A DNA stretch of 37,411 nt, from the NCBI GenBank assembly GCA_029934055.1, contig JAOZMZ010000011.1, positions 1-37,411 on the forward strand, given 5' to 3'. Source of the stretch: Kiritimatiellia bacterium (GTDB lineage: Bacteria > Verrucomicrobiota > Kiritimatiellia > B70-G9). A program made the translations under genes and the position numbers. Position 1 is the stretch's first letter. Each line of letters starts with the position of its first letter. The notes under the pieces were generated by a model. That model was not told the origin of the DNA and did no database searches. It saw nothing but the letters and a program-made list of their open reading frames with translations. Below, piece by piece: positions 7,475 through 29,209 of this stretch.

Positions 7475-10400
7475 ATGTACATTGAAGGGATAGCATCGCA
7501 CCGGGTGGGTGTAGCTGCATCGGTTGGATTGTTTCTTTCCGTAATACTCGCATGGGTTCAACCTGCGTGGTCGGGGGAGGTTGGATTTGCCGAATATTAC
7601 GTGCTCGGTGACGAGGACGACCTGATTGAGGCGTACAAGGCGATACCCAATTCGCAGGTTCCGGCGTCGGCAGCGGGGTCGAACATAAACTCGCGGGTAT
7701 GCATCGTATCAAGTGTGGGGGGGACGCACGTATATCTCGATGAATGGGAAGATGGTTATGATTTTGATCCCAGCGATCCTTACAACACAGCGGATGCCAA
7801 GTGGGATGCTGCGGCGGGAGGACCCGGCGAAGCGGGCGATGCTCTTTCCAAGGGAGAGGTCCTGGTCCTGACGGAAACAAACAGATACGTCAGTGGAAGT
7901 GAGGGGGTTGACGGTGGGGATCGTATATATATTTCCGGGGCACCGGTTTCCGTGGTGCGGATAGTTTGGCCGGATGATCCGGGCAGTTACATTGCGGGGG
8001 CATGGGAGCTCTACCCGGAAATTGTGTGGCAAGACAAGTATACCGTACCGATAGGAGTGGATCTTACATATACGAATAGCTCCTATCCGTTTGAGTATAC
8101 ATTTTTGTTCATTGAAGCCGGACGCACAAATACGCGCATAGTAGTGACGGCTCCATCGGAAGGCGTGATCGTGGATACCAATCTTGCGGCTGGCGAGAAC
8201 ATTTATCTGACGAACGTGAATTCCGGCACGCATATTGCGGCGAGTGATCCGGTGTCGGGGGTTGCACGGCCGGTTCAGGCGGCGGTGATGAGTAGCGTTA
8301 ATGAGTATGTGGACACGCGATTTTTCACGCTTACGCCGGAGAATTTTTTGGGTACAGACTATTTGCTGCCAGCTCCCTCGCAGCAATTCATTCCAGGAGA
8401 ATTCAGCGGCACATCTACGAATGCTGCCTACATATTCGCGTTCGAGAGTAATACGACGGTAAACATCGTAACTTATCATACGAACGTACAGGTGCTGTTG
8501 ACGAACAGGTACGATGTTTACCGTTTCGAGTTGCCGTTCCTGCCATACGACCAGACATCGGGTTTTTACGGGACGGAGATATCGTCTGTGGACAGCACGA
8601 AGAAAATATGGGTTCTGGTCGCGGCCGATGATGATGATGACGTGGTTGATTGGGGGTATCAGGCGCTGAACATGGCGGAATTGAGTCAGGAGTATTTTTC
8701 TCCGTACGGTCCCGCGAACCCCGTTCACATAACACCCCAGTATGACAACACGACAGTCTGGATTGATTTTGACAACGACGGTACGAACGATAAGACGATC
8801 GTTCTTGATAAATTCGAAACCTACGAAATATATGATCCGGATCATGACGGGACGGGGGCGCGCTATTATTCAGACAAGCCGGTGGCGGTGGCATGGGGGC
8901 AGGACAACACCCAGCAGTCTCCGGGGGAACCGTTGCCCGACTATGATTACGGGTATACATTGTTGCCGCTATACTGGAGGGATCCGGTTCTGGGAATTCA
9001 GAAGAGCGCCGATCCAACTAACCTCCCCTCTGAAGGAGGGACCTCGGAATTTACACTGGTTGTATCTTCTTATACCAGCACGGTATACAACATAGATATC
9101 AGCGACAAGCTGCCGCCGGGATGGTCGTACGTGTCGAATTCCACCCTGATAGTATTCAGTGACGGAACTCCGAATATGACGAATGAGCCTTCCGGGGCGC
9201 CGGGGCCGGACCTTTCGTGGGATCTCGATCATGATCTGACGCCGACACAGACTATCACGTTAACGTTCAGCGCGTGCACGGTCAGCGGACAATACACTTA
9301 CGGCTGGCAGGTCAACGAAGCGGAGGCTTGGGGTTATAGCGTGGATGACGAGACCAACGTGAACGCACAGGCGTTTAATCCATCCGACTATTGTTTTGTG
9401 TACATTCCACAGACCGCGGTTCTGTCTGTCAGCAAGAGTTCCAGTGCCACTGGAACGGTTGATCCGGGGGACACGATCACTTATACGATAACGATAACGA
9501 ATATCGGATCGGCGCAGCAGACGGGCATCAGGGTACGGGACTATCTCCCGAGTGGGATGACATACGTCGCCAACAGCACGTGGGTGGCCTCGCCGGGGAC
9601 GGGCAGTAACACCGTGCGTGATGAGTTCAATACACAATCCTACACAAGCAACGATGGGACCACAGAATGGGCCAACGACTGGCAGGAAAGTGAGGGGGAC
9701 GGCCCCACTGCAGGGGACCTGCAAGTGCTGGCGGACGTTTCGAACTATCAACTGCGTTTTCGAGACGACAACCTATGGATCTATCGGTCGGCAGATCTTT
9801 CAGGGGCGACGGCGGCGGTGTTGAGCCTTCTGTATCGGAGGGACAGCCTTGACAATGCGAATGAATGGGTGGACTTGCTGATTTCCAGCAATGGGGCTGC
9901 GCCGTGGACCGTTCTCGATCAATATGCAGGTGCTGCCACGGACTCTTCTTACATTTACACGAATTATGACATAACAACTCACATCGGGACCAATACGACA
10001 ATTGCCTTTTGGAACAACAACCGTGGAATGGCGAATGGAGACCGGGTATGGTTTGACGACGTGGAGATTGCATATCTTTCGCCGCCAGGCACAGTGACGA
10101 ACGCCGGCGGTGCTCCTCCGATTCTTGCCGACGGCTACAGTCTCGGCCCAGGCGAAGTGATGGTGGTGACATTGCAGGCCACAGTGGATGACCCTGCAAC
10201 GGTGACACAACTAGTGAATACCGCCTATGTGCGCAGCGACCAGCAGGATCAGTTGGAAGCGTCTGTGACAAACGATGTTATAGCCGCAACGCTGGGTGAT
10301 TGGGTGTGGTATGATTCGAACACGAACGGTGTTCAAGATGCCGGAGAGACCGGGGGGGTGGAGGCTGTAACCGTCAGGCTGTATGACAGTACGAGTAACC

Positions 10401-13400
10401 TGATTGACAGTGTTCAGACGGACAGCGGGGGCTATTATGAATTCAACGGACTCGGCCCCGGTGACTATTTCCTGACATTTGAGCCGCCCACTAATTATTT
10501 CTTCAGTCCGCAGGATCAAGGGGGTGATGATGCACTTGACAGTGATGCGGACCCGACAAACGGGACTACGTCGGTTTTCAATTTGCTGCGTGGGACCAAC
10601 ATGGTCAGTCAGGACGCTGGTTTATATGTGCCGCCGGCGAGTATCGGAGACTATGCCTGGTTTGATGCCAACACGAATGGGCTGCAGGATGCCGGTGAGT
10701 CTGCAATGACAAACATCACTGTCCGGTTGTACGGCTCGCAGTCGAATTTGGTGGATAGCACGCAGACGGATTCGTCCGGTCATTACCTTTTCGAGGACGT
10801 GTTCCCCGGAGATTACTTTCTGGAATTCGAAAAACCGGTTGACTATACGTTTACTTTGCGTGACCAAGGTTCCGACGACGGTGTTGACAGCGACGTTTAC
10901 AAAATAACGCATCGCACGGCGACGTTCACCGTGTCCGCGCAGGAGGCGGCGACGAATTGGGATGCGGGGTACATTTTGCCGGTATCCGGCCTGAGGATAA
11001 CCAAGAGTTCTGACGCTGGCGTGGACTGTCTGTCGCCGGGTGATACGGTCGAATACACAATTTTGGTGGAAAACACGGGGACTGTTTCCCATTTGGTACA
11101 AATGGTCTACGATGAAGTGCCGGCCGGTGCGACGTACGTAAGTAACAGTACCCGAGTTGTCGGCTACGGTGTGGCCAGTAACACGGTTAGGGATGAGTTC
11201 AACACGGTCGCTTATGGCAACAACGACGGATCGACCGACTGGCTCGGGCCGTGGGTGGAGAATGATCCGTATGGGAATTCCGGTCCTGTGGGAGATTACG
11301 TGGGGGTAACTAATGGACGGCTACGAATACATTATGCTTATGTGGGGGACGAACGTGCTGAGCGGGCGGTAGATCTTTCGGGGTATACCAGTGCGGTCTT
11401 GAGCTTCGATTGGGAAACGGTAGGACTTGATGCCGGCGAGACGATTTCCACTCTCATTTCCACCGACGGGGTGAACTTCACGACCTTGGATACCTTCGGG
11501 GGAACGGCGAGCGGATGGACGAATTATGACATAACCGGTTACATTTCTCCAAGTACCACCGTACGTTTCGCAAATGAAAGTCAGAACTGGGAGGCGGGGG
11601 AGATGGTATTCTTTGACAACGTTGAGATCAGCATGTTGTCCGCCCCGGGTATCGTTACGAACGCCGGCGGCCCACCACCGGTGCTGGCGGAGGGTTATAC
11701 GGTGGATACCGGGCAGACCTTGACCGTGACGTTTCAGGTGACGGTTGACTCTCCGGGATCGGTAAGTGAACTTATCAATACAGGGTCTGTTGTGAGTGCT
11801 ACACATCCGGCGATTAGTGACGTTGTAACGGACTGTGTCGTTTATGCGGACCTAGCGCTCCAGAAGACGGCCACTGATACCGAGCCGTCGGAGGGAGAAA
11901 GCATCCAGTACATACTGACCCTTACCAACAACGGCCCCGACGATGGGACTAGCATACAGGTCAGTGATTCGCTGCCGTCCGGGGTCACTTATCATTCTCA
12001 TTCGAATGGGGTGTACAACGAGGTGACCGGGATATGGGACGTAGGCGATCTAGCGAGTGGCGTGTCGACTACGTTATATATTGTGGTGGGGGTGGATGAA
12101 GACACCGCCGGACAGGAGATCACCAATACCGCCAGCGTGAGTGCGCGTGATCTTTACGATCCTGTGGCATCCAACGATACTTCGAGTGTCGTGATATCAC
12201 CCGTACCGACCCTTGTAGTGATTTCGCATTTTGCTGCGAGTATTGTCAGCGGAAAAGTTGTTCTGGAGTGGGAGACAGCCTCGGAAGTGGGCACGCTGGG
12301 ATTTTACATATACCGATTTGAGAGCAACCATCTGGTCCGTGTGAATGACAAATTGCTTCCGGGTTTGCTCACGGCACCGCAGGGAGGGCGATATCGTTAT
12401 ATCGATGAGTCGGCATCACCGCGTGGTGTGCTTATTTACCGGATTTGTGAGGTCGGCGTGGACGGCGCGCGCCATTGGTACGGTCCGTTCCATGTAGAGC
12501 CGACGGCGACTGGCGAGACGCGGCTTATGGGCCGGCGTGGATTTGCCAAGAGCAAGCCGGGGTCTTGGGGCATGGACGAATATGACCGCAAGGCGAGGAC
12601 TTCGGGCCTGCGTGCACGGGCGCGGCGCCTGCAACATGCCGCACTTGTAGAAGGTATGGAAGAAAGCCGCCGGAGACTTTTCGGCAACTTATTGAAACTC
12701 GAAGTGGAAACCAACGGGATTTACTTTGTAAGCCGGGCTGAATTGGCCGAACGGTTTGCTCTCCCTGAATGGTACGTGGAGCAGATTTTGAGGTATCACT
12801 ACCTGGCGCTGAGCACTTGTGGTGATGCGGTGTCCTACTGGGTGCCGAGTGATGATTCGGGGCTGTTTTTCTACGGGGAGAAAGGGGACGGCCATTACTC
12901 AGATAAGAATGTCTACTGGCTGGGGTGGGGAGAAGGGCGCTTGATGGATGTCATGGATTGTGCCGGCGGCGGAGCAGGGTTTCAGCAGACGTATCGGGCT
13001 ACGCGACATTTTGAGGAAGATCGTTGGCCCTCGGTGGGCCTTTTCCATGATCCGGATGCGGATTTCTGGTTGTGGGATTTTGTGATTGCGGGGAGCCCGA
13101 GCGCGGGTTGCCGGGATTTCGTGGTGGATGTTCCCGCCCCAGCTGACGGTGGTGGGGATGCGCAGGTCAAGTTGCACTTCAAAGGGGCGTCTTCCACCAG
13201 GCACGATGCGGTTGTCAAGGTGAATGGGACGATAGTCGGGGAGGTTACGTGGGAGGGACTGTCCGAGCATGACGGATCGTGGTCATTTCCTCAGGGGGTG
13301 CTGGTGGCGGGTGACAATGTAATTGAGGTCGAGGGATTACTTGGAGATGGGGTGCCCTACAGTGTCTTTGCCGTTGATTCGATAGACTTGGAGTACGAGA

Positions 13401-14728
13401 GTCGCTGTTGTGCGCAGGGAGATGCCGTCGTATTGCCGGTGGTGGCCGGTATGGCGGTGAGGGTGACGGGCTTTTCTACCGATCGTGTGGCGGTGCTGGA
13501 GATCAGCGATCCCCGCGACCCGAAATGGGTAAAGGGGGCGGATCTAGAGAGTGATGGAGCCGGCGGCTGGGCGGTGATGCTGGAGCCAAGCAGCGGAGCG
13601 CACCGTTGCCTTGTAGCCGGCGAGGGAGCTTGGATGGCTCCCGTCTGTGTTCCGGCCGGTGACTATGAGAGCCTGTTGGAAAGCGAAGGCGCAGATTATG
13701 TGATTATCACTGTTCCGGAACTGGAGGATTCGGCCGAGTTGCTGGCGCAATATCGTCGCAGCCAGGGATGGGCACCGTTGGTAGCAGAGATCGAGGCGGT
13801 CTACGACGCGTTCAACTATGGGAATCCCAGCCCGGAGGCCATACGCAGGTTCCTTGACTATGCCTATACATATTGGAGCCGGCCGCCGGTGTGTGTTCTT
13901 TTGATGGGGAAGGGCACGTATGATTACCGGGATATTCAGGGATACGGAGACAATCTCATTCCGGTGAAGCTGGTGGGGACCGCACACGGGCTTTTCGCCG
14001 CAGACAATTGGTACGGTGACGTGGTGGGGGACGACGATGTTCCGGAGATGGCGATTGGGCGCCTTCCGGTGTTGAATCCATCAGAAGTTACGGATTACGT
14101 TGACAAGGTCGTCGCATATGAGGGGGGCGATGGCGATTGGACCAGGTCTGTAATACTGGCGGCGGATAATGGGGATGACGGCGGCAATTTCACGGCCGAC
14201 AGCGAGAGCATGGCCGGGCTGATACCGTCGGGGTACTCATTGACGCGTTCGTACCTGGATTGGATGGATATTGACACGGCGCGCACGGTGCTGCTGGACG
14301 CGCTCGATGGGGGGGCGGGATTGCTGAATTACATGGGCCACGGCGGCTTGGACCGCATGGCACAAGAAGGGTTGCTGACGAAGGACGATGTGGGGGCCAT
14401 GCACAATGCCGGGAAGACGCCTTTTGTCATCGGAATAACGTGTGTGATCGGGCGTTATGAGTTGCCGGGCTACGATTCTCTGGCGGAGACCCTGGTCATA
14501 TGTCCGCAAGGCGGGGCTGCAGCTGTGTGGTCACCGAGTGGTATGTCGATGCACAACGCCGCCAGGATACTTGATGACGCCTTTCTACGCGCGCATTACA
14601 TTAGCGGTGCAGATTCGGCGGGGGACTGCATCCTGCAGGCCCTGGAGCATTTTCGTGATACAAGTGAGGCTGAGTATCTGTTGCAGATTTACAACTTGTT
14701 GGGTGATCCGGCATTATTGCTGAAGTAG
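7475..14728 (+). CDS. Giant secreted modular protein: DUF11-like domains, two SdrD_B-like domains, C-terminal gingipain-type (C25) peptidase
   Basis: 2417 aa with N-terminal signal-like segment. SdrD_B motifs LGDWVWYDSNTNGVQDAGE and IGDYAWFDANTNGLQDAGE; DUF11 motifs (VDPGDTITYTITITNIG, LSPGDTVEYTILVENTG); C25 catalytic signatures LLNYMGHGG (His) and FVIGITCVIGRY (Cys). Confidence 0.92.
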   Translation: MYIEGIASHRVGVAASVGLFLSVILAWVQPAWSGEVGFAEYYVLGDEDDLIEAYKAIPNSQVPASAAGSNINSRVCIVSSVGGTHVYLDEWEDGYDFDPSDPYNTADAKWDAAAGGPGEAGDALSKGEVLVLTETNRYVSGSEGVDGGDRIYISGAPVSVVRIVWPDDPGSYIAGAWELYPEIVWQDKYTVPIGVDLTYTNSSYPFEYTFLFIEAGRTNTRIVVTAPSEGVIVDTNLAAGENIYLTNVNSGTHIAASDPVSGVARPVQAAVMSSVNEYVDTRFFTLTPENFLGTDYLLPAPSQQFIPGEFSGTSTNAAYIFAFESNTTVNIVTYHTNVQVLLTNRYDVYRFELPFLPYDQTSGFYGTEISSVDSTKKIWVLVAADDDDDVVDWGYQALNMAELSQEYFSPYGPANPVHITPQYDNTTVWIDFDNDGTNDKTIVLDKFETYEIYDPDHDGTGARYYSDKPVAVAWGQDNTQQSPGEPLPDYDYGYTLLPLYWRDPVLGIQKSADPTNLPSEGGTSEFTLVVSSYTSTVYNIDISDKLPPGWSYVSNSTLIVFSDGTPNMTNEPSGAPGPDLSWDLDHDLTPTQTITLTFSACTVSGQYTYGWQVNEAEAWGYSVDDETNVNAQAFNPSDYCFVYIPQTAVLSVSKSSSATGTVDPGDTITYTITITNIGSAQQTGIRVRDYLPSGMTYVANSTWVASPGTGSNTVRDEFNTQSYTSNDGTTEWANDWQESEGDGPTAGDLQVLADVSNYQLRFRDDNLWIYRSADLSGATAAVLSLLYRRDSLDNANEWVDLLISSNGAAPWTVLDQYAGAATDSSYIYTNYDITTHIGTNTTIAFWNNNRGMANGDRVWFDDVEIAYLSPPGTVTNAGGAPPILADGYSLGPGEVMVVTLQATVDDPATVTQLVNTAYVRSDQQDQLEASVTNDVIAATLGDWVWYDSNTNGVQDAGETGGVEAVTVRLYDSTSNLIDSVQTDSGGYYEFNGLGPGDYFLTFEPPTNYFFSPQDQGGDDALDSDADPTNGTTSVFNLLRGTNMVSQDAGLYVPPASIGDYAWFDANTNGLQDAGESAMTNITVRLYGSQSNLVDSTQTDSSGHYLFEDVFPGDYFLEFEKPVDYTFTLRDQGSDDGVDSDVYKITHRTATFTVSAQEAATNWDAGYILPVSGLRITKSSDAGVDCLSPGDTVEYTILVENTGTVSHLVQMVYDEVPAGATYVSNSTRVVGYGVASNTVRDEFNTVAYGNNDGSTDWLGPWVENDPYGNSGPVGDYVGVTNGRLRIHYAYVGDERAERAVDLSGYTSAVLSFDWETVGLDAGETISTLISTDGVNFTTLDTFGGTASGWTNYDITGYISPSTTVRFANESQNWEAGEMVFFDNVEISMLSAPGIVTNAGGPPPVLAEGYTVDTGQTLTVTFQVTVDSPGSVSELINTGSVVSATHPAISDVVTDCVVYADLALQKTATDTEPSEGESIQYILTLTNNGPDDGTSIQVSDSLPSGVTYHSHSNGVYNEVTGIWDVGDLASGVSTTLYIVVGVDEDTAGQEITNTASVSARDLYDPVASNDTSSVVISPVPTLVVISHFAASIVSGKVVLEWETASEVGTLGFYIYRFESNHLVRVNDKLLPGLLTAPQGGRYRYIDESASPRGVLIYRICEVGVDGARHWYGPFHVEPTATGETRLMGRRGFAKSKPGSWGMDEYDRKARTSGLRARARRLQHAALVEGMEESRRRLFGNLLKLEVETNGIYFVSRAELAERFALPEWYVEQILRYHYLALSTCGDAVSYWVPSDDSGLFFYGEKGDGHYSDKNVYWLGWGEGRLMDVMDCAGGGAGFQQTYRATRHFEEDRWPSVGLFHDPDADFWLWDFVIAGSPSAGCRDFVVDVPAPADGGGDAQVKLHFKGASSTRHDAVVKVNGTIVGEVTWEGLSEHDGSWSFPQGVLVAGDNVIEVEGLLGDGVPYSVFAVDSIDLEYESRCCAQGDAVVLPVVAGMAVRVTGFSTDRVAVLEISDPRDPKWVKGADLESDGAGGWAVMLEPSSGAHRCLVAGEGAWMAPVCVPAGDYESLLESEGADYVIITVPELEDSAELLAQYRRSQGWAPLVAEIEAVYDAFNYGNPSPEAIRRFLDYAYTYWSRPPVCVLLMGKGTYDYRDIQGYGDNLIPVKLVGTAHGLFAADNWYGDVVGDDDVPEMAIGRLPVLNPSEVTDYVDKVVAYEGGDGDWTRSVILAADNGDDGGNFTADSESMAGLIPSGYSLTRSYLDWMDIDTARTVLLDALDGGAGLLNYMGHGGLDRMAQEGLLTKDDVGAMHNAGKTPFVIGITCVIGRYELPGYDSLAETLVICPQGGAAAVWSPSGMSMHNAARILDDAFLRAHYISGADSAGDCILQALEHFRDTSEAEYLLQIYNLLGDPALLLK
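10291..10977 (+). repeat. Two tandem SdrD_B-like domain repeats inside the giant protein
   Basis: Parallel motifs: GDWVWYDSNTNGVQDAGE...VRLYDSTSNLIDSVQTDSGGYYEF...PGDYFLTFE and GDYAWFDANTNGLQDAGE...VRLYGSQSNLVDSTQTDSSGHYLF...PGDYFLEFE. Confidence 0.9.
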
Positions 14729-14737
14729 GGGTTTGGT

Positions 14738-15031
14738 ATGGATACCGGTATGAATACTCGTTATCAGCGGAGGCAGGAAATCGTAGCGCGAAAGATTTGT
14801 GACGAGACAATTCTCGTTCCCTCGTCGGGAAGTGCAGCGGAATTGTTGCGTTTATTCGTATTGAACCCGGTTGCTGAATATCTTTGGGAGAAATTGCGCG
14901 AGCCTCGAACCCTGGAGGAGCTCGTACATGACCTGCTGGAGAATTTTGATGTCGATCCGGTGACTGCGAGAGGAGACGTGCGCGGTTTCGTAACGACGCT
15001 ATGTCGGAATTCTTTGGCGGAAGAAGTGTAA
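14738..15031 (+). CDS. PqqD-like peptide-binding protein (RiPP recognition element type)
   Basis: 97 aa: ILVPSSGSAAELLRLFVLNPVAEYLWEKLREPRTLEELVHDLLENFDVDPVTARGDVRGFVTTLCRNSL matches the PqqD pattern (N..a..iWe.l....t.eel...l...ydv......dv..fl..L...gL). Confidence 0.9.
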   Translation: MDTGMNTRYQRRQEIVARKICDETILVPSSGSAAELLRLFVLNPVAEYLWEKLREPRTLEELVHDLLENFDVDPVTARGDVRGFVTTLCRNSLAEEV

Positions 15032-16137
15032 TGAACGTGGCCGAGGCGCCCGGATGTAGCGGGTACGAATCATCCGGTGAGACGTTTGTTGATACCGAAT
15101 GGTATCGAGAATTCCGCAGCCGTGCGGCTGCGGCACGGGTGCCGGTATCCGGAATGATCGAATTGACGAGGCGCTGCAACCTGAGATGCGGGCACTGCTA
15201 TCATCGTGATCATGTCCCTGTGAGGGAAATGGACACGGCCCTGATCCTGAAGGTCCTTTCCGAGGCGGCTGAGATGGGCTGTCTCTATATGACTTTCACA
15301 GGCGGGGAGCCCTTCCTTAGAGAGGATTTTGACGTTATCTATCGTACTGCCCGTAGGCTTGGTATGGTAGTGAGCGTATTTTCGAATCTGACTTGTCTCA
15401 GCGAGGATCTGGCCGAGCTTTTTTCAGAAATGCCGCCGCGCGTGGTCGAGGGGAGCATTTATGCGGTGCGCGCCGCGGAGCACGACGCCGTCACCGGTGT
15501 TGCCGGATCCTTTGATGCTCTACTGCAGGGAATAAAGCTTTTGCAGCGACATGGCGTCCGGGTTGCTCTCAAGACGATGATTATGCCGTCGACGGGGGAG
15601 CGGATCGCCGAGATTGAGCGGCTGGCGCAGGATCTCGGTGTGTCTTTTCGTGTCGATCCGTATGTCTTTCCCCGTTTTCACGGAGAGCGTGGGGAGCACC
15701 ATCGTTTCCACATGGATCCGAAAGATGCCGTGCGGATAGAACTGGCTTCGGGATATCGGCGCAGTCAGTGGCTGGATTATGCCCGCAGACGGGTGCGTCT
15801 GGATCCGGGGCGGAGATTGTTCCAGTGTGGAGCCGGTACGACGGGTTTTTTTGTTGATGCGTCCGGCCGTCTTTCGCCGTGCCTGATGACGACCAGATAC
15901 CGCTATGATCTTGCAGGCAGGTCTTTTGCAGAGGTGTGGCACGCTGAAATAGCCGCGGCGGTCGCCCAACCGGCTTCTCCGGACTACGTGTGTGCAGATT
16001 GCAGTTTGCGGGCGTATTGCACCGGTTGTGCGGCGGTGAATTATCTGGAAACCGGGGACGAAAACTCGCCCGATTCGTATGTATGTGCACTAGCGCAATG
16101 CCGTCGAGATGTGTTAGATTCAATGGTGAGAGTGTAG
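15031..16137 (+). CDS. Radical SAM/SPASM peptide-modifying enzyme
   Basis: CNLRCGHC (CX3CX2C) and GGEPF motif; SPASM region CGAGTTGFFVDASGRLSPC ... CADCSLRAYCTGC ... C. ATG at 15031 overlaps the PqqD stop (TAATG). ORF track start is 15001. Confidence 0.92.
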   Translation: MNVAEAPGCSGYESSGETFVDTEWYREFRSRAAAARVPVSGMIELTRRCNLRCGHCYHRDHVPVREMDTALILKVLSEAAEMGCLYMTFTGGEPFLREDFDVIYRTARRLGMVVSVFSNLTCLSEDLAELFSEMPPRVVEGSIYAVRAAEHDAVTGVAGSFDALLQGIKLLQRHGVRVALKTMIMPSTGERIAEIERLAQDLGVSFRVDPYVFPRFHGERGEHHRFHMDPKDAVRIELASGYRRSQWLDYARRRVRLDPGRRLFQCGAGTTGFFVDASGRLSPCLMTTRYRYDLAGRSFAEVWHAEIAAAVAQPASPDYVCADCSLRAYCTGCAAVNYLETGDENSPDSYVCALAQCRRDVLDSMVRV

Positions 16138-16152
16138 GTGAGGCTAGGTTTC

Positions 16153-16341
16153 ATGGCATACAACAGTAAAAAGAGACAGTCCGGCGTTGACAAGCGCAAG
16201 GAGTATCAGCGGCCGGAGGTGAAAATAATCGAGCTCAAGGCCGAGGAGACTCTTGCGGTCGGGTGCAAGTTGGCGGATGGCGGCAGTGCCAGTGGTGGTT
16301 TTACCTGCGTTTCGAATGCCTGTGCCGAGCCGGGATCATAA
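16153..16341 (+). CDS. Putative RiPP precursor peptide, 62 aa
   Basis: MAYNSKKRQSGVDKRKEYQRPEVKIIELKAEETLAVGCKLADGGSASGGFTCVSNACAEPGS: charged leader with YxRPEVKxIELKAEE, then a Gly/Ser/Cys-rich tail (C38, C52, C57). Immediately follows the PqqD and radical SAM genes. Confidence 0.8.
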   Translation: MAYNSKKRQSGVDKRKEYQRPEVKIIELKAEETLAVGCKLADGGSASGGFTCVSNACAEPGS

Positions 16342-16368: not shown

Positions 16369-17313
16369 ATGAAATGGGTTTATTCCTGTGGTGGGCTTCG
16401 AGTAGGCGTCCGAGCGGCGCCGGGTATGATTATAGGGGTTGGGGAGGAGCAGGAGCCTTTTCTGGCTGAGGAGCGGAAGGGGCATCAGCCCGACTTCGTT
16501 GTGGATATCAACTGGATTGGATCGCAGGGGATCGGGGCGAATACCGACGAATGGGAATTTCGCGCAGGGCATACGTGGACATTCCGCCGGGATGGTTCCA
16601 GGAGATTTTTTCGTTTTGCCGGGGCGGATGGGGTGTGGGAGCGTATTTTGAGTATTGATCCGGTGAATGGACACTACGCAGTGTTCTGTTCACGCGAGGC
16701 ATGCCGGCCGAAAGGGGGCGGGTGTGTATATCCCTTGAGCTATCCCTTGGATCAGGTCTTGATGATGTATCTTTTGGCCGAAAGAGAAGGGATGATCATT
16801 CACGCAGCGTGCATTGCTCACGGCTCGGCGGGAATTGTTCTGGCGGGTCCATCGGGCGCGGGCAAGAGCACATTGGCTGCAGCGGTATTGCAGGGTGGCG
16901 GGCTGGAATGTTTGAGCGATGACCGGACAGTGCTTCTGTCCGCAGAATCCGGAAGAGTGTCTTGTTGGGGTACTCCATGGGCCGGTGAAGGTGGGTTCAG
17001 GGCAAACAAGGGCAAGCGCGCTGCCGCGGTAGTGATAATAAGGAGGTCGAAGGAGCCTGATGAGGGCTGCCGATTGAGGAGACTTGAGAAGAGGCATGGG
17101 GTAGAGGCTTTAATACCGGTGGTTTCTTTTCCCTGGTTTGATGGAGAAATGTTGGAAAGACATCTGGGGATTTTGGAGAGGATTGTCGGCTGCGTTCCGA
17201 TATATGAACTTGATTGTAATGACATCTCGGAGGCTGTGGGTCGGTTGCTATCGCTTGTCGACGGGGTATGTTCGGCGGTGAGAGACGACCAGCCCGAGAA
17301 TCTGATCGGGTGA
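16369..17313 (+). CDS. HPr kinase-like P-loop protein associated with the RiPP cassette
   Basis: 314 aa. Walker A GPSGAGKSTLAAAVLQGG followed by ECLSDDRTVL and ...GTPWAGEGGF, typical of HprK-related proteins in peptide-modification loci. Confidence 0.82.
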   Translation: MKWVYSCGGLRVGVRAAPGMIIGVGEEQEPFLAEERKGHQPDFVVDINWIGSQGIGANTDEWEFRAGHTWTFRRDGSRRFFRFAGADGVWERILSIDPVNGHYAVFCSREACRPKGGGCVYPLSYPLDQVLMMYLLAEREGMIIHAACIAHGSAGIVLAGPSGAGKSTLAAAVLQGGGLECLSDDRTVLLSAESGRVSCWGTPWAGEGGFRANKGKRAAAVVIIRRSKEPDEGCRLRRLEKRHGVEALIPVVSFPWFDGEMLERHLGILERIVGCVPIYELDCNDISEAVGRLLSLVDGVCSAVRDDQPENLIG

Positions 17314-18867
17314 AATGCGCTCCGCAGATCGTGAAGACGAATCACCACGGACTTTGTATGCGCGGATACCGGAGGGGGCGAAGAGAGTTTCCGCCAGCCG
17401 GTGGATACGGAGCAAGCCGTCGGGGGTTCGATACAGGACGAGTTGCCCTACATTCAGGGTATTTGGATTGTCTACAGGTTTGATATCGACGACGTCACCA
17501 TCATGAATTGTGGGCAGCATACTTTTTCCGCCGACGCGGATCGTGATTTTTTTCCCCTGCGCCAGCGCCTCGAGCGCAAGGTGATTCAAATAGATGTTCT
17601 GTGGTGAGGGAAGCCGGCGGGATGCGGGACGGAGTCGTCGGTTGCGTTTGCCTCTGATGGAAAAAAAGCGGCGGGAGGATAACGCCAGTAGGCGAACATG
17701 ACGTGAGATCAGACGGATGATCCTTAAGGGGTAGTAGAGATATCTGAGAGAAAACGGCAGATGTACGGCCTGGATTTCAAGGCAGGTAGGCATGAAGACC
17801 AACCAGTGAATCCATTGAATCCTGTGAGGGGGCCCGGACAGGACTGCCAGATGCATCCGCCACTTGTTCAACCGGGATGCCCGGTCATTGTAGCGACTCC
17901 AAGCCTTCGAGACGGCATCGGCCTTCTTGTCTTCTATGCTTGAGAGAGAGTCTGCGGCCTGCAGGCGATATGTGCGGCTTACCAGGCCCAGCGAAGCCGC
18001 CATCGCCGGAAGCAACCCTGACGAACGGGCATGTTCAAGGACCTCTCGCAGATCATTTTCCGAGATGAGTTTCAACAAGTGGGCCACGTCACACATAAGG
18101 GCAAGACGGTCCCAAGCGTGCTGACACCCGTGAATGAGCAGTTCTGTGAGGGTGTCGGTGGGCGATAGAGTTGCAACAGGCTTGTTTTGGATGGGGATGG
18201 AGTACAGGCGGTCGAATACATGGCTTTCACCGTTGGTAGTAATCGGCCAGGGCCTCGAGGTAATCTTCCAGTGTAGATCAATGCAAAGGGCGCCATCAGT
18301 CCTGAGGAAGGAGTGCGAATCCCTGAAAAGTGACAGCATTTCGAGTTCACGGATCGTCAGGTTGAATTGAGGAGTGTAGCCTTCGGCGGCGAGATACTCA
18401 AAGGCGCGGCGGCGCTGATCAAAAGGGATGAGGATGTCTACATCGGCGAAGATGCGAAGGAAGGGCGTATTATAAATGAGTTGCGATAGAACCGGTCCAC
18501 GGATGACCGTAGCGAGTATTCCCGAGGCTCTCAATCCTTCCAGGAATTGAAGCAACATGTCAGTGACGTAGACGGCATGGGCAACGTTGCAATAGTAGGT
18601 GTGCTGAAGGCGTTCGAAAGCATCCGCGGGTATGGATGCCTGAATGCGGTATGAGCGGATCTTGTGGAAAAGGATCGTAGCCAACCCTTCCGCGTGAGCG
18701 ACATCGGCGATTTCATGCCAATCGAGATGCTGGAGCGACTCGGCCGGAATACGGGTGCCGGGCGTTCGGGGGGTTGTCAGTTCGACGATAGTTTGTAGCG
18801 AATGGGATATTTTCCGAGATGACATAATGGACCTAGGGAACTGCATGGGCACTATTACTTGAGACAA
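17248..18867 (-). CDS. Nucleotidyltransferase (NTP_transf_5-like) fused to an S24/S26-type peptidase domain
   Basis: 539 aa. N-terminal VIRGPVLSQLIYNTPFLRIFADVDILIPFDQRRRAFEYLAAEGY resembles PF14907-type NTases. C-terminal IRVGGKSMLPTIHDGDVVDI...LVLYRTPDGLLRIHRL...YKVRGDSS...ILGLVV is S26-like (SMxP Ser and HR motif). Confidence 0.82.
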   Translation of the reverse strand: MSQVIVPMQFPRSIMSSRKISHSLQTIVELTTPRTPGTRIPAESLQHLDWHEIADVAHAEGLATILFHKIRSYRIQASIPADAFERLQHTYYCNVAHAVYVTDMLLQFLEGLRASGILATVIRGPVLSQLIYNTPFLRIFADVDILIPFDQRRRAFEYLAAEGYTPQFNLTIRELEMLSLFRDSHSFLRTDGALCIDLHWKITSRPWPITTNGESHVFDRLYSIPIQNKPVATLSPTDTLTELLIHGCQHAWDRLALMCDVAHLLKLISENDLREVLEHARSSGLLPAMAASLGLVSRTYRLQAADSLSSIEDKKADAVSKAWSRYNDRASRLNKWRMHLAVLSGPPHRIQWIHWLVFMPTCLEIQAVHLPFSLRYLYYPLRIIRLISRHVRLLALSSRRFFSIRGKRNRRLRPASRRLPSPQNIYLNHLALEALAQGKKITIRVGGKSMLPTIHDGDVVDIKPVDNPNTLNVGQLVLYRTPDGLLRIHRLAETLFAPSGIRAYKVRGDSSSRSAERISPDQILGLVVSHRRTYPVDKR

Positions 18868-18992: not shown

Positions 18993-19102
18993 GAATTAAC
19001 TTCATGGTGCAGGCTGATTGCATTATGGGAGTGTGGATTGGTGGTTCTCAGCAGGGTACCGGCGGTATTGGGTCGGTTATGCGCCGGAATGCGGGAGAAG
19101 GC

Positions 19103-19513
19103 ATGCGGGTGGTTAGGCAGGGACTGCCGAAGGCAGTAACGGGGTTGTTTCTATGGCTTTTATTTGCCGGACACCTTGGAGCTGAGGCGGGACATAAGGA
19201 GTCGGCTGTAGTAGTTGAGGCCGCGCCCATCAAGGGGCGTGTCCTCATCTGCACGCAACGGGCAGAAGATGACGAGGTCCCGGCACGCAATGTAACCATC
19301 CAGGTGTGGGGTCAGAAGAATCGGCGATTACTGCAGACGACACACACAGGGAAGGAGGGATATTTTTCACTTTCCAAGCTGGAAGTGGGCAAATACGGAC
19401 TGCGGATTGGGCGTCTGCGACTGAAGATGGAAGTGATACCGTCCAGTGATCCGCGCGTAGCGCAGTTGCCGAAGGTTATTATTGTAATTCTTCCGCGCGA
19501 GTTGTTGCGGTGA
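19103..19513 (+). CDS. Small secreted Ig-like / carboxypeptidase-regulatory-like domain protein
   Basis: Start MRVVRQGLPKAVTGLFLWLLFAGHLGAEA (signal-like), RBS gggagaag; KGRVLICT...NVTIQVWGQKNRRLLQTTHTGKEGYFSLSKLEVGKYGLRIGRLRLKMEV. ORF track start is 19004. Confidence 0.7.
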   Translation: MRVVRQGLPKAVTGLFLWLLFAGHLGAEAGHKESAVVVEAAPIKGRVLICTQRAEDDEVPARNVTIQVWGQKNRRLLQTTHTGKEGYFSLSKLEVGKYGLRIGRLRLKMEVIPSSDPRVAQLPKVIIVILPRELLR

Positions 19514-20147: not shown

Positions 20148-20307
20148 ATTTGCAGCCTCCCGGCAGCTGTCACCCATAATATTAGCTTCTTCAGCGGATA
20201 TTGTACATAGATTTCTCCGATTGTGATATCCTTGATGGACGAGTGTTTCGGGTGTATTTTGAAGGCAGGTGGCAGAGTTGACTGGTAGGCTATGCCGACG
20301 CATTGAA

Positions 20308-20805
20308 ATGAAGAGCATCGGCTACAGAGTGCTGGGGGCGTGTATGGTGATCTTGGTGGGGGTGATCGCCTTGCCGGCGGTGGGAGCTGCGCCGGTATCG
20401 GACAGCAGTCTGGTGCTCACCAAGGTATTCAGGTCGCAGATTCGTGGTTTCGTTTTCTACACAGATGGGGAGACGCCGGCTTCGAAGGTTCCCGTGAGGG
20501 CATGGGATGTTGAGCAGCGAAAGTTCGTGGCCGAGACGACGACTGATGACAACGGGTTCTTTGAGTTGCCGGAATTGCCGCCCGGTGAGTACTACATTAC
20601 TTTTGACTGGACGCGGCTACGGATCGAGGTGGAAGAGAATAAGCCTGGAAATGTCGTCCAACAGGCACATCACGTCATTGTGGTCATTCCGAGGGACGTT
20701 GCGTTCATATCCATACCACAACTGAGCAGTGTTCTTCTGGCGACGTCGGTATCGGAGGTCGCCAGGCGCACCGAGGAGGAGCGACCGAAGCTTATCAGTC
20801 CGTGA
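20308..20805 (+). CDS. Small secreted Ig-like / carboxypeptidase-regulatory-like domain protein, related to the 19103 gene
   Basis: Signal peptide MKSIGYRVLGACMVILVGVIALPAVGAAP; SQIRGFVFYTDGETPASKVPVRAWDVEQRKFVAETTTDDNGFFELPELPPGEYYITFDWTRLRIEV...HHVIVVIPRDV. Confidence 0.72.
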   Translation: MKSIGYRVLGACMVILVGVIALPAVGAAPVSDSSLVLTKVFRSQIRGFVFYTDGETPASKVPVRAWDVEQRKFVAETTTDDNGFFELPELPPGEYYITFDWTRLRIEVEENKPGNVVQQAHHVIVVIPRDVAFISIPQLSSVLLATSVSEVARRTEEERPKLISP

Positions 20806-20842: not shown

Positions 20843-21988
20843 ATGAATATTTTACGAAGGGGCGTAACGAGGCACGGGTCAATCAGCATATTTCTGGGGG
20901 CGGGGTGCCTGGGGCTGATGGCTGCCGTTGCGGGGGGTGGCTGTAGTCACCAGGATTTTTCGCGGCCTTCGGTTCACAATCCGCTTGCAGACGTTCTTGA
21001 TTCAGGCAAGCCGTATGTGACCGATGACAGGGAGTCGGATCGTCGCGAAAAGATGCAGAAACTGCTTGAGCGGTGGGCGGTTACTCATCGCGGTGAGGAG
21101 AAGGGGGAATATCGAGTTGGTCCGGGGGATGTTCTGGAGATATCCGTTTTTGCGCTTGAATCGCCGCAAGAAACCAGCCGCCTTTTGCGGGCGGTTGCCG
21201 ACGATGGATCAGTATCGTTACCCTGGGTTGGTAGTGTCAAAGTGGCGGGTTGGACTCCTCGTGAGGTTGAGAAGGAGATCGCGGCCGCCTATCGTGGGAG
21301 ATTCCTGAAAAATCCGCAAGTCACGGTTGATGTCAAGGAGTACAACAGTGTGGTTGTTCTTGTTACCGGGGCGGTGGTCAAGCCGGGGATTTACAAGTTG
21401 CGTCATAACCGGGACACCTTGCTTGAAATTTTAAGCATGGCGGGGGGGCTGAGAGCGGATGCCGGGGACGAGGTTTTGGTGGTTCACCGTGCAGGGCGCG
21501 GCAGGACGGGGTTGCGAGACGGTTTGAGTACCGGGGGGGCGGAGGCGGATGGGGGAACGGTTGTCAGGATAGATCTCAAGGCGCTTGTAGATGATGGTGA
21601 TTTGGATTTGAATGTGCTGGTCGGGCGTGGCGATATAGTCGCCGTACGGCCGAGGATGCGGAGATATGTTTACGTATTGGGATATGTCCAGAGGCCGGGG
21701 GCGTTTGAATTGAAGAGTGGACAGAAGGTGGATGCGCTAAAGGCAGTTGCCTTAGCGGGGGGGTTGTCGGCCACGGCGCGGGCGCAAAACTCATTTCTGG
21801 TCAGGGAAGCAAAAGACGGCCAGACGATCATTCCGATAGACTTGGTGAAGATCGCCAAAGGGGTGAGACCCCCGGTCTATCTACGCGGGGGCGACACGCT
21901 GGTAGTGGGTTCGGGATTTCTGGCGCGCCTGTCGGAGTTTGTGAGGCCGAGTGTAGGGGCGGGGGTATCGTACACGCCAGCGCCGTAA
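20843..21988 (+). CDS. Polysaccharide export outer-membrane lipoprotein (Wza-like, Poly_export and SLBB domains)
   Basis: YRVGPGDVLEISVF ... GSVSLPWVGSVKVAGWTPREVEKEIAAAY ... NPQVTVDVKEYNSVVVLVTGAVVKPGIYKL; lipobox-like GGGC near the N-terminus. Confidence 0.93.
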   Translation: MNILRRGVTRHGSISIFLGAGCLGLMAAVAGGGCSHQDFSRPSVHNPLADVLDSGKPYVTDDRESDRREKMQKLLERWAVTHRGEEKGEYRVGPGDVLEISVFALESPQETSRLLRAVADDGSVSLPWVGSVKVAGWTPREVEKEIAAAYRGRFLKNPQVTVDVKEYNSVVVLVTGAVVKPGIYKLRHNRDTLLEILSMAGGLRADAGDEVLVVHRAGRGRTGLRDGLSTGGAEADGGTVVRIDLKALVDDGDLDLNVLVGRGDIVAVRPRMRRYVYVLGYVQRPGAFELKSGQKVDALKAVALAGGLSATARAQNSFLVREAKDGQTIIPIDLVKIAKGVRPPVYLRGGDTLVVGSGFLARLSEFVRPSVGAGVSYTPAP

Positions 21989-22041
21989 AGATTTGTAAAT
22001 TCGATAACAGTTTATGTTTGAACTCGGACTTTTTATTTTAC

Positions 22042-22069
22042 TTGTCAGATAGTCAGGGTGATATATGAA
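22042..22069 (+). promoter_or_regulatory. Putative promoter TTGTCA-16-TATGAA in an AT-rich gap upstream of the Wzc-like gene
   Basis: TTGTCA at 22042..22047, 16-bp spacer, TATGAA at 22064..22069, in a locally AT-rich 128-bp intergenic region. Confidence 0.35.
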
Positions 22070-22092
22070 TGTAGAAACGTTTTACATTCATA
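22064..22092. promoter_or_regulatory. Perfect 10-bp inverted repeat (candidate operator) upstream of the Wzc-like gene
   Basis: TATGAATGTA-gaaacgttt-TACATTCATA; the 9-nt spacer contains the palindrome AAACGTTT. 24 bp before the ATG at 22117. Confidence 0.6.
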
Positions 22093-22116
22093 CTGTGTAG
22101 TTGTAAAGTAATAAAG

Positions 22117-24450
22117 ATGAAAGAATATCTTGGGCGGGTGAGGGGCGCGTCAGGTGGTGGGACTGAAGAGGTGCAAGACGCGGGAATAGAGGCGTACAGT
22201 CGCGGTCGGTTGGGTACATCGCTGTTGCGATACGTGAGTATTGTGCACCGGCATGCGGGGATTGCTCTGGCCGTATTTCTGGGGGTTTCGATTTTGGGTG
22301 TCCTCCGGGCCTATCGTTCGGCGCCGGTTTATGTTGCCCACGCGAAGGTGTTGTTGGAGACGCACGGTCCGGCGATCGTGCAATTTCATGATGTCAGCCA
22401 ACCGAATGTCCCTTGGTGGGCAGAAGATTATTATCGCACTCAGGCACAGCTTATTCGCAGCCGCAGGGTTCTGGAAATTGCGTTGGAGGATCCCTCCATA
22501 GCCGCTCTTTTCGGTAAGGCCGGTGACGTTCGGACGCGATCGCACCGTTCGATGCTCGACTCGTTGAAAGCGCTTTTGGGGTTACCGGTCAGCATGCCGC
22601 CTGAACCCTGGGAATCTCTCAAAGGCATGGTACGTGCACGGTATCTTCCGAATACCCAGTTTATTATAATCGAGGGTATCAGTACGGACCGGCGGGTGGC
22701 CTCTCTGATTGCCAATGGGGTGGCCCGGGCTTTCATAACCTATCACCACCGACGCCGTGCGGAGATGAGTAATGATGCATTTACCTATTTGAAACAGCAG
22801 AAGGAGAAGGAAGAACGGGCTCTGCGTGCGGCTGAAGAGCGGCTTCAGCGTTACCGGGAGTCTACGGATTTATCCAGTCTGGACACGACCAGTCCCGATC
22901 ATCCGGTTCTCAGGCGTCTTGCCATGTTGAACGAGAGCCTGACGAAGACGGAACTGGACAGGGTTGACGCTGAATCCGAATACCGTGTGGTGCGGATGGC
23001 GGCCGGCAAGACTGTGATAGATCCGCAGGATGAACAGTTGTTTTCGTTGCAATATGTGCGCAGTGATCCAACGGTTACCGGTTTGCGCAACGAACTGATA
23101 GAAGCGGAGGCCCAGCGCGCGTCCTTGCGTGACACGTATGGGCCTCAGCATCCGCGGATGCAGGCCGTGGCGGGCAAAATCCGTGTATTGCGGGAACAAT
23201 TGCGGGCTGCCTTGGGTGAGATTGTTGAAAGCTTGCGTAAGCGTGTCGAGGTCTTGGAGGAAAAGGAGGCTGAACTCAAGAAGCGTTACAACGAACAGAA
23301 CACGCGCGCACTGGCGTTGGCCAAGGAATCCTTTATGTTCCAACATCTCCGGAACGAGGTAGAGCGGCACCGGAAACTGTATGAGATTCTGGTGGAGCGG
23401 ATGAGCGAGGTAAAAATAACCTCGGATTACCAGTGGACCAACGCCGAGTTGGTCGAAAAGGCCTCGGTTCCGAAGGCGGCCACCGGGCCGCCGAAGGTAC
23501 GTCGGGGATTGTTGGCGCTCATGTTCGGGCTGATCCTGGGGGTGGGTGCGGCCCTGTTGGTCGAGCGATTGGATGATACGATACGTACGCCGGAAGACAT
23601 CGAAGAAGTTCTCGGTATTCCGGTATTGGGGTTCGTACCGGCGATAGGTGAGGGAGATACGGTCAGTGATGGAACTGTTTATCGCGCGCTGGTCAGTTGT
23701 CGGGAGCCGGAGTCTTCGGCGGTGGAGGCATACCGCAACATTCGGACCGTGCTCTTTTTCTCGGCGCCGTCGGATGAACGTGAGATTCTGCTGATCACGT
23801 CTCCGGGCCCGGGGGACGGCAAGACAACCATGGCAGTCAATCTGGCGGTGGTGATGGCTCAAAGCGGCCGCAAAGTACTTCTTGTCGATGCTGATTTCAG
23901 GCGACCGATGATCGCCCGCAGTTTTGGTTTGAGCAGCCGGAAGGGTCTCAGCTCGGTACTGGTAGGCGAGTGCTCCGTGCAAGAGGCGGTCCAGAAGACT
24001 TCGCAGGATTCGGCTTTGCTGGAGAATCTGGACATTCTGGCGGCAGGACCGAAGCCGGCGCGGCCGGCGGAGCTTTTGGAATCTGATGCGATGCGCAGAT
24101 TCCTGGACGAAGTGCGCAAGGGCTACGATCGTGTTATTTTGGATACCCCCCCGGTTCTGTTCGTTGCTGATACAAGTATATTGAGTGCGATCGGCGACGG
24201 AATCGTGCTGGTTGTGCGGGCGGGCAAGAGCCGCATGGGACAGGTGTTGCGGGCACGGAAGCATTTGGAAAGCGTTGGGGGCAGGGTGATCGGGGGCATA
24301 CTGAACAAGGTGGAGTTGAAGAAGTTCGGCGTATACTACTCGGACTACTTCTATCACGGCTACTCCCGCTATTATCGCGATTACAATCGCGCTTACTACG
24401 CCAAGTCACGCCGACGGAGCGATGAGACGACTGTCGAGTCGCGGGGATAG
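22117..24450 (+). CDS. Wzc-like chain-length determinant / bacterial tyrosine autokinase
   Basis: 777 aa. Wzz-type N-terminal TM and coiled coil, Walker A SPGPGDGKTTMAVNLA, VLLVDADFRRP, Tyr-rich tail YYSDYFYHGYSRYYRDYNRAYY. Confidence 0.95.
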   Translation: MKEYLGRVRGASGGGTEEVQDAGIEAYSRGRLGTSLLRYVSIVHRHAGIALAVFLGVSILGVLRAYRSAPVYVAHAKVLLETHGPAIVQFHDVSQPNVPWWAEDYYRTQAQLIRSRRVLEIALEDPSIAALFGKAGDVRTRSHRSMLDSLKALLGLPVSMPPEPWESLKGMVRARYLPNTQFIIIEGISTDRRVASLIANGVARAFITYHHRRRAEMSNDAFTYLKQQKEKEERALRAAEERLQRYRESTDLSSLDTTSPDHPVLRRLAMLNESLTKTELDRVDAESEYRVVRMAAGKTVIDPQDEQLFSLQYVRSDPTVTGLRNELIEAEAQRASLRDTYGPQHPRMQAVAGKIRVLREQLRAALGEIVESLRKRVEVLEEKEAELKKRYNEQNTRALALAKESFMFQHLRNEVERHRKLYEILVERMSEVKITSDYQWTNAELVEKASVPKAATGPPKVRRGLLALMFGLILGVGAALLVERLDDTIRTPEDIEEVLGIPVLGFVPAIGEGDTVSDGTVYRALVSCREPESSAVEAYRNIRTVLFFSAPSDEREILLITSPGPGDGKTTMAVNLAVVMAQSGRKVLLVDADFRRPMIARSFGLSSRKGLSSVLVGECSVQEAVQKTSQDSALLENLDILAAGPKPARPAELLESDAMRRFLDEVRKGYDRVILDTPPVLFVADTSILSAIGDGIVLVVRAGKSRMGQVLRARKHLESVGGRVIGGILNKVELKKFGVYYSDYFYHGYSRYYRDYNRAYYAKSRRRSDETTVESRG

Positions 24451-24589
24451 CGGTTATTCGTCCGGGCTGACGTCGGGGATTGCAGTGACCGATAAGCAAA
24501 GGGGCCTGCGGCTTGTGATTGCGGCGGCCGCTGTTAGCATGTATTCTCATTTCAGGCCAAGACAGGTTGACTGTACGTTTTCGTAGCTT

Positions 24590-26548
24590 TTGGTAGGCGG
24601 CATGAGGTCGAGGGTTACCGTCAACGATTGGGGATATATGAGGGGTACGGTAATTGCCGAGAAGGTATCAATTCGTCTGGTAATCGCTTGTCTGGTGGCA
24701 GCCCCATGGATTTTCGGTACGTCGGAATTGTGGACGGGGTTCCTGTTGGGTCTGATGTTGCAGACAGCCGCGATCCTTTTGCTGGTTTCCCGCATGATAG
24801 ACATCTCGCGCAGAATGATGCACGAGCGGCTGTTGGTGTCCCTGTTTCTTGTCTTGATCGCGTACATTTTGATTCAGGTGATACCTTTTCCAGTGCGCGT
24901 GGTGGAGGCCATGAGTCCTTTGTCGGCGACCCTCCGTCAGCGACTGGGAGCCTTGAGTGAACAGAGTGGTCTCAAGTTGGCGATGGCGACGATTTCCCTG
25001 GCACCGGGGACCTCTTGGCGTGCGATAATGTCTCTGGCCTCTGTCGCAAGTGCCTTTTACGTGATAACATCTGTGAGACCCGGATGGCCGGAATTGCGCC
25101 GCGTCGGCGAGCTGCTGGTGGCCTCGGGCGCGCTGATGGCTGCCGCGGGGATTCTGCAGTTCCTTGCCGGGGCAGACAAGCTGTTGGGTTTTCATGAGCC
25201 CATATACGGAGGACACATATTTGGTCCGTTTACAAACCGTAATCATTTCGCGGCGTACATGAATTTGGTCAGTGGGGTGGGATTGGGTCTCTTATACAGT
25301 GAGGGAGCCGAGAGGATATTCGATCCTTCGATGGGGAGTCTCCGTGGCGGCTGGAGAAGATTGCGCGGCTTGAGGTCGGTCTCGGTGCTCGTAGTCATGG
25401 CCTTGTTGATGACTGTCACGGCGACGATTTTGACGCTGTCTCGGGGTGGGATTCTGGCAATGCTCTTGGTTTTGGGCTCAAGCGGGCTGCTGACCGTGTG
25501 GGGCCGGGGGCGACACGGATATCTTCAATCGCGAGGCAGGGCGGGGATCTGGCTGTTACTGATCTGTTCATTCACAATAAGCCTTTGGATCGGATGGGAT
25601 CGTATTATTGCGAGGCTGGTTCAGATTGGTGAATATGCGCGGGATCCTTTGGCGAGCGTGCGTCTGGCGGCTTGGCGGGACACCTTACATTTATGGGCAG
25701 CCTGTCCGTGGTGGGGTTGTGGATTCGGGGCCTTTCAGCATGCTTTTCCGTTATTCGAGAGTGATCTCCTGCATTTCGGCCGCTGGACGCATGCGCACAA
25801 TGATTTTGCCGAGTTTTTGTCTGAAGGCGGGATCGCGGGCTGTCTATTGATGCTTGGTTGGGTTGCAGCTTTTTCATTCAGGGTCTGGCGGGGCTACGTG
25901 AAATCCAGTCGGCGTCGAAGATTCTTCGCCGTGGGGATGCTGTCGGGAATTGCGGCGGTGATTTTGCACAGCCTGGTTGACTATAACCTGCATCGTTTTG
26001 CGATTGCCCTCTCGATTGTGAGTTTGGCGGGGTTGGCGCTCGTAATGTTGTCCGAAGGTGGCGGATATTACTCAGGAGTGGAACAGGGTATACCGACAGT
26101 GTGGTCGCTGGTCGGAAGGCGGGTCACGGCGCTGGCGTTAATTGCGGGACTGCTGTTTCTGATGCACCTTGAGATCGACGGATTGCGGGGGCAGGCTGCC
26201 TTTGCGCGACTGCGGCAATGGGCCCGGGCGGTTGAGACGACCGAGGAGGAGAAGGATCTCGGAGTGTTGTCAGCGCTGGCACTCCGTGAGCTGGCGATTG
26301 TGCGGGAGCATTGCCGCCGATGTCCGGATGTGCTTGTTGATGCAGGGGTACTCACGCTGGGAATTGTACGGCGTTTTGACGTACCCCCGGAAGAGCGGGT
26401 GCAGCTGGCGATGTCGGTACGCCGCGCAGTTGAAACTGCGGTGTGTGAAGCACCCGGTAACAGTGAATACTGGGAATGGCTCATACGCTGGGATGATATC
26501 CTGGGGTTGAGAGAAGAGTCCCGGCGACTGAGCGAGATGACATACTGA
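24590..26548 (+). CDS. O-antigen ligase / polymerase family membrane protein
   Basis: 652 aa polytopic; FGPFTNRNHFAAYMNL and WWGCGFGAFQHAFP...HAHNDFAEFLSEGGIAG typical of the Wzy_C superfamily. Confidence 0.9.
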   Translation: MVGGMRSRVTVNDWGYMRGTVIAEKVSIRLVIACLVAAPWIFGTSELWTGFLLGLMLQTAAILLLVSRMIDISRRMMHERLLVSLFLVLIAYILIQVIPFPVRVVEAMSPLSATLRQRLGALSEQSGLKLAMATISLAPGTSWRAIMSLASVASAFYVITSVRPGWPELRRVGELLVASGALMAAAGILQFLAGADKLLGFHEPIYGGHIFGPFTNRNHFAAYMNLVSGVGLGLLYSEGAERIFDPSMGSLRGGWRRLRGLRSVSVLVVMALLMTVTATILTLSRGGILAMLLVLGSSGLLTVWGRGRHGYLQSRGRAGIWLLLICSFTISLWIGWDRIIARLVQIGEYARDPLASVRLAAWRDTLHLWAACPWWGCGFGAFQHAFPLFESDLLHFGRWTHAHNDFAEFLSEGGIAGCLLMLGWVAAFSFRVWRGYVKSSRRRRFFAVGMLSGIAAVILHSLVDYNLHRFAIALSIVSLAGLALVMLSEGGGYYSGVEQGIPTVWSLVGRRVTALALIAGLLFLMHLEIDGLRGQAAFARLRQWARAVETTEEEKDLGVLSALALRELAIVREHCRRCPDVLVDAGVLTLGIVRRFDVPPEERVQLAMSVRRAVETAVCEAPGNSEYWEWLIRWDDILGLREESRRLSEMTY

Positions 26549-29179: not shown

Positions 29180-29209
29180 GGCGCGTGCTGAGAGGAGCTT
29201 TGTACAGCC

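Follow-up and report, generated by a model that had tools for sequence, protein, structure and literature searches.

The window, i.e. the whole 37,411-nucleotide stretch of contig JAOZMZ010000011.1 (Kiritimatiellia bacterium, assembly GCA_029934055.1) that was analyzed, contains a set of genes around a 62-aa open reading frame, with the following features:

7475 to 14728, plus strand: 2417-aa repeat protein (DUF11, SdrD_B) with a C-terminal C25 (PorU-like) peptidase domain (PF01364, E = 4e-81, aa 2075-2415)
14738 to 15031, plus strand: discrete RRE of the PqqD family (PF05402, E = 3.2e-14)
15001 to 16137, plus strand: radical SAM/SPASM peptide maturase (PF04055, E = 2.3e-24)
16153 to 16341, plus strand: RiPP precursor (probable, see below), ATG start, 62 aa, with relatives in about 70 loci
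16369 to 17313, plus strand: HprK-like kinase with His145, Lys166 (P-loop GPSGAGKS), Asp184 and Asp185
17248 to 18867, minus strand: NTP_transf_5 nucleotidyltransferase (NTase) fused to a C-terminal archaeal-type signal peptidase I-like domain (PF14907, E = 3.5e-42)
20843 to 30463, plus strand: surface-polysaccharide genes (Poly_export/SLBB, Wzc-like, Wzy_C, GT4, Wzm/Wzt ABC exporter; Pfam)

The small ORF lies 15 nt 3' of the radical SAM gene and 27 nt 5' of the kinase gene; an alternative GTG start at 16138 would yield a 67-aa product. The original prediction had described a 62-aa peptide with Cys at positions 38, 52 and 57 and a C-terminal Ser, next to an HprK-like ORF at 16369-17313; both ORFs are located there as described, and the peptide sequence given matches from EYQRPEV onward. 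The leader (YQRPEVKIIELKAEETLAVG) includes, at residues 18-23, YQRPEV (YxxPxV, Tyr18), a putative RRE-binding motif, together with an EExL stretch. The boundary between leader and core is placed before Cys38, an inference from conservation only, whereby the putative core (CKLADGGSASGGFTCVSNACAEPGS) comprises Cys38, Cys52, Cys57 and the terminal Ser62, with further Ser residues at 45, 47 and 54. There is no second precursor copy in the window's genome, and no NCBIfam family matches the precursors at a meaningful score.

The radical SAM gene probably starts at the ATG at 15031, overlapping the stop codon of the RRE gene. Its product has a SPASM match of 21.3 bits, marginally under the Pfam cut-off of 21.5, and the alignment of its relatives (denoted A1) shows invariant CxxxCxxC and C-terminal Cys columns. 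In the PDB, the RRE matches TbiB1, a lasso B1 protein (E = 0.0012).

To place the locus among its relatives, two samples were used. A kinase search of the phylum covered 291 genomes, 29 of them positive, and in many stretches around the kinase matches the RRE, radical SAM, precursor and kinase genes occur together. A scan of the GTDB collection with alignment A1 gave 80 named loci (L062 is on the same contig as L043, and their precursor was entered once) from Verrucomicrobia/Kiritimatiellae, Planctomycetota, Omnitrophota, Desulfobacterota, Nitrospirae, Acidobacteria, Aminicenantes, Elusimicrobia, Chloroflexi and others; many of these carry the same cassette as the window, and the RRE is present in 71 of 79 cassette loci. 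Further genomes of the phylum, as well as members of many other phyla, have small ORFs homologous to the precursor in the same position, between a radical SAM gene and an HprK-like gene. To avoid bias on the terminal residue, precursors were collected with a profile of the leader only, blind to the C-terminus, which gave 70 distinct precursors in radical SAM loci.

The last residue of these 70 precursors is Ser in 62 and Thr in 3, with one each of Tyr, Pro, Gly, Gln and Cys, against 10.7% Ser among the remaining core residues. Terminal Ser is thus conserved far more than expected by chance (binomial p about 3e-51, uncorrected for relatedness). Because this p value ignores relatedness, the average over 34 radical SAM clusters at 50% identity, a terminal Ser fraction of 0.86, is the fairer figure. 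Ser does not exceed 16% at any other of the last 12 positions, compared to 89% at the last one, and at −2, the C-terminal position with the next highest conservation, only 36 of 70 have Gly. The median core similarity is low (0.30), yet the terminal Ser persists. The order radical SAM-precursor-kinase was found in 46 cases, with Ser as the last residue in 40, Thr in 2 and another residue in 4. Every core has at least 2 Cys (70/70), two or three being usual, and the first Cys is at core position 1-2 in 63 of 70. The proposal was to be refuted by homologues in which the terminal Ser or the Cys pattern is not conserved; the terminal residue (Ser or Thr in 65/70) and the presence of core Cys stood up, whereas the spacing of the Cys residues is not fixed. 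The suggestion that the Cys residues are radical SAM targets gains support from their number and from the position of the first one, with the type of cross-link undetermined.

The structure model of the kinase (mean pLDDT 90.6) matches known structures of HprK and PEPCK. Across 93 HprK-like proteins, His and Lys never vary; most have D-D at the two acidic positions, and the remainder mainly D-E or E-D. The window kinase retains the His-Lys-Asp-Asp motif of the lasso-peptide C-terminal-Ser kinases, a motif that is essential in the lasso kinases phosphorylating the terminal Ser (reviewed in PMC9266682 and PMC8498205). Of the five precursors that end in neither Ser nor Thr, those of L080, L093 and L105 (ending in Pro, Gly and Gln, respectively) accompany kinases with an E-D-Q motif; all three are from Anaerolineae/Chloroflexi and thus possibly reflect one evolutionary event. 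This variant does not account for the other two, L060 (Tyr) and L109 (Cys). The kept motif, and exceptions that in part go with an altered one, support the earlier proposal that the adjacent HprK-like kinase acts on the terminal Ser, in the absence of phosphorylation data.

The L060 precursor (4395-4529, plus strand) ends KGY, its close relative in L050 ends ADGS, and the kinase motif is D-E-K in L060 vs. D-E-R. HprK-like genes without a radical SAM neighbour (L044, L048, L049, L056 and L061) adjoin peptides that lack a terminal Ser; core Cys are absent from these peptides as well, with the exception of L056.

Two further elements go beyond the original prediction: a leader-peptidase domain and the C25 gene. 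The fusion gene carrying the former is convergent with the kinase gene, overlapping it by 66 nt on the opposite strand (17248-17313). Its peptidase domain shows an apparent Ser449, His489, Asp509 triad, recognized from motifs only; the S24/S26-like match (22 bits) is just under the Pfam cut-off of 23.3, the TIGR02228 match (28.3 bits) is below its cut-off, and a PDB sequence search with this domain gave no match. The peptidase part of the structure model has low confidence because the alignment held NTase rows only; the NTase part matches MenT1, aminoglycoside nucleotidyltransferases and, weakly, FKRP. With the mixed profile split so that the two domains were counted separately, a signal peptidase-like domain with the Ser/His/Asp motifs is present in 60 of 79 cassette loci and the NTase in 22 of 79 (a lower bound, the stretches being limited), the two being fused in four loci, in both orders. 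We infer that the signal peptidase-like domain is a probable leader peptidase.

The C25 gene, the only one in the window's genome (7475-14728), is separated by 9 nt from the RRE gene that follows it and probably belongs to the operon. Its product shares the C25 domain with PorU, the type IX secretion sortase, and its best NCBIfam model is indeed PorU (NF033707), although the score is half the cut-off (212.7 vs. 420 bits). The catalytic His and Cys are kept in 28/28 aligned copies, with one fragment that does not cover them. In several phyla a C25 ORF is the neighbour of the cassette, a number of these ORFs being no more than 30 nt away from the RRE gene; C25 was found in 23 of 79 cassette stretches, several of which are cut by contig or stretch ends. 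In the phylum sample, C25 genes are carried by 25 of 29 kinase-positive genomes compared to 33 of 262 others (p about 3e-16). SprA and the Por secretion tail had no match in the window's genome; the SprA control was likewise silent.

The polysaccharide genes downstream are regarded as context, not as a proven part of the cassette; the interval that separates the cassette from the polysaccharide export genes encodes two small CarboxypepD_reg/SdrD_B-like proteins (19004-19513 and 20269-20805). A sigma-70 promoter scan did no better than shuffled sequences and a terminator scan was only slightly above them, so that no operon boundary is claimed from these scans. Three loci (L049, L057 and L061) have C25-RRE-HprK sets with no radical SAM gene in the stretch, and the peptides of L049 and L061 have neither Cys nor terminal Ser; these sets possibly represent a sister system.

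Several known systems share parts of this gene set. Among them are the linear polyphosphorylated peptides (LPP) of Bacillota (Popov et al. 2026, PMC13381572), which combine an RRE, an HprK-like kinase, the signal peptidase SpI, an NTP transferase and a YxxPxV leader. In LPP biosynthesis, LppK phosphorylates core Ser3, not the last residue, and the SpI-like peptidase (catalytic Ser, His and Asp) cuts off the leader when the RRE presents it; the function of phosphorylated RiPPs is unknown, according to the same authors (PMC13381572). Common to LPP and the cassette are the discrete RRE, the YxxPxV leader motif, the HprK-like kinase, the NTP transferase, nearby capsule/exopolysaccharide genes and an archaeal-type SpI-like leader peptidase, the last being in the window a domain fused to NTP_transf_5 that is identified by motifs only, with family matches below cut-off. 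However, LPP have no described radical SAM enzyme, which finds no mention in the main text of the LPP paper (PMC13381572), and carry phosphate on core Ser3, whereas the cassette has a radical SAM/SPASM protein, a Cys-rich core and a conserved terminal Ser. The window leader does not meet the LPP consensus YxxPxVLxHQxIxFETxxS, and core position 3 is not Ser. No counterpart of the MsbA-like LPP exporter was seen in the window, where the only ABC exporter among the ORFs scanned is of the Wzm/Wzt type, about 10 kb away; an ABC transporter family occurs in 16 of 79 related stretches.

Lasso peptide clusters of the paeninodin/pseudomycoidin type (PadeK, ThcoK, PsmK, PsmN) have in common with the cassette the terminal Ser, the His-Lys-Asp-Asp kinase motif, an NTP transferase and a B1-like RRE, but differ by a macrolactam cyclase and a B2 peptidase, in place of which the window locus has a radical SAM enzyme and a Cys-rich core. 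The SynChlorMet set (TIGR04248-TIGR04251: ScmD, ScmC, ScmE, ScmF) likewise brings together PqqD-like, HprK-related and radical SAM/SPASM proteins, whereas the window has one radical SAM protein, and these models match far below their curated cut-offs in the window (ScmE, 97 vs. 400 bits), L118 and L068. A Cys-rich core with a dedicated radical SAM/SPASM maturase (the SPASM match being marginally under cut-off in the window) is found in sactipeptides and ranthipeptides too; the cassette, with its undetermined cross-link type, differs in adding a lasso-type RRE, a Ser kinase and a signal-peptidase-like enzyme. We found no paper in the literature searched on a RiPP that joins radical SAM with an HprK kinase or with C25.

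That the neighbouring enzymes modify the 62-aa peptide is almost certain, an inference from genes, motifs and conservation. On balance, we favour the reading that this is the precursor gene of an uncharacterised RiPP whose maturation combines a radical SAM enzyme with phosphorylation of the C-terminal Ser, a reading we consider likely although the enzymatic steps are inferred. The PqqD-type RRE would bind the YxxPxV motif of the leader and present the peptide; the radical SAM/SPASM enzyme would modify the Cys-rich core, with thioethers formed from Cys as the most likely cross-links; and the HprK-like kinase would add one or more phosphates to the hydroxyl of the last Ser, as PadeK and ThcoK do on lasso precursors. 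The signal-peptidase-like domain of the fusion would then remove the leader, as LppS does in LPP biosynthesis, and the NTase domain may decorate the phosphate, by analogy with PsmN, an NTase relative linked to hexose addition on phosphorylated Ser (PMC9266682); with the NTase in only 22 of 79 loci, the last step would not be general. After export, for which the cell surface is the probable destination, the product may act together with the C25 (PorU-like) protein and the downstream polysaccharide genes. The genes, motifs, conservation, gene order and co-occurrence are observed; what each enzyme does, in which sequence the enzymes act, where the leader is cut and what the peptide is for are inferred.

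The site of phosphorylation could be questioned. The LPP kinase acts on core Ser3 (PMC13381572), so that the C-terminus is not an obligatory target for such an HprK-like kinase; Ser45, Ser47 and Ser54 are available in the window core, and the terminal Ser might be kept for another reason, such as recognition by the radical SAM enzyme, a peptidase or an exporter. We regard an internal target as unlikely, given the scarcity of Ser at the other positions of the core end, the changed kinase motif that accompanies loss of the terminal Ser and the precedent of related kinases, which are known to phosphorylate a C-terminal Ser (PMC9266682). It is more doubtful still that the kinase acts on some other substrate (a carrier, sugar or regulator) beside a plain radical-SAM RiPP cluster, the association with Ser reflecting shared ancestry only. 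The HprK-family proteins in loci without radical SAM, next to peptides without terminal Ser, would fit such a role, but the kinase gene is directly 3' of the precursor in 46 radical SAM cases, the terminal Ser outlasts the divergence of the cores, and there is literature precedent for phosphorylation of such peptides (PMC9266682, PMC13381572). The YxxP leader, B1-like RRE, HprK-like kinase, NTP_transf_5 and terminal Ser taken together resemble a paeninodin-type lasso cluster; however, a radical SAM enzyme stands where the lasso enzymes would be expected, Asn_synthase matches occur only on other contigs of the genome and nothing scores above the cut-off for the B2 family. Membership in the lasso class, which retains hardly any plausibility, was rejected because neither a lasso cyclase nor a B2 peptidase is seen in the window.

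Another possibility concerns what the peptide does: it may be a partner of the C25 protein, as protease substrate, activator, inhibitor or a linker anchoring proteins to surface glycan. The spacing of 9 nt, the adjacency in several phyla, the enrichment of C25 among kinase-positive genomes and the conserved catalytic dyad speak for such a partnership; however, C25 is present in a minority of the stretches, several of them truncated, and there are no direct data on peptide and C25. We hold this to be rather improbable as it stands, if the least remote of the alternatives, and it is compatible with terminal-Ser phosphorylation of a radical-SAM RiPP, not opposed to it. A specific version is a long shot: that the mature peptide is a ribosomal linker, whose phosphorylated C-terminal Ser would be joined to surface glycan via the NTase, and whose free N-terminus would be the acceptor for a PorU-like C25 protein anchoring proteins to the cell surface.

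With the phosphorylated radical-SAM RiPP as the favoured reading, the cassette is, judging by sequence, a widespread radical-SAM RiPP system in which the C-terminal Ser is conserved and a matching kinase is present; its chemistry and function have not been shown. On this reading, it joins radical SAM chemistry on a Cys-rich core with HprK-type phosphorylation of the terminal Ser, which in the literature searched are described apart. Since relatives in many phyla share the motif and the last Ser, the locus exposes a widespread, undescribed peptide system of this combined kind. The cassette occurs in many phyla, mostly of uncultured bacteria, and its precursor motif is searchable, so that one mass-spectrometry experiment could test dozens of candidate products. 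As to the role of phosphorylated RiPPs, the association with PorU-like C25 and polysaccharide genes gives a first point of entry.

Among the related loci, L102, L106, L109, L111, L112, L113, L118, L123, L129, L133 and L137 encode proteins of ~650-700 aa that match both the radical SAM and the HprK profiles. These loci have several radical SAM genes, and the precursor, where found, usually ends in Ser (the exception being L109, with Cys).
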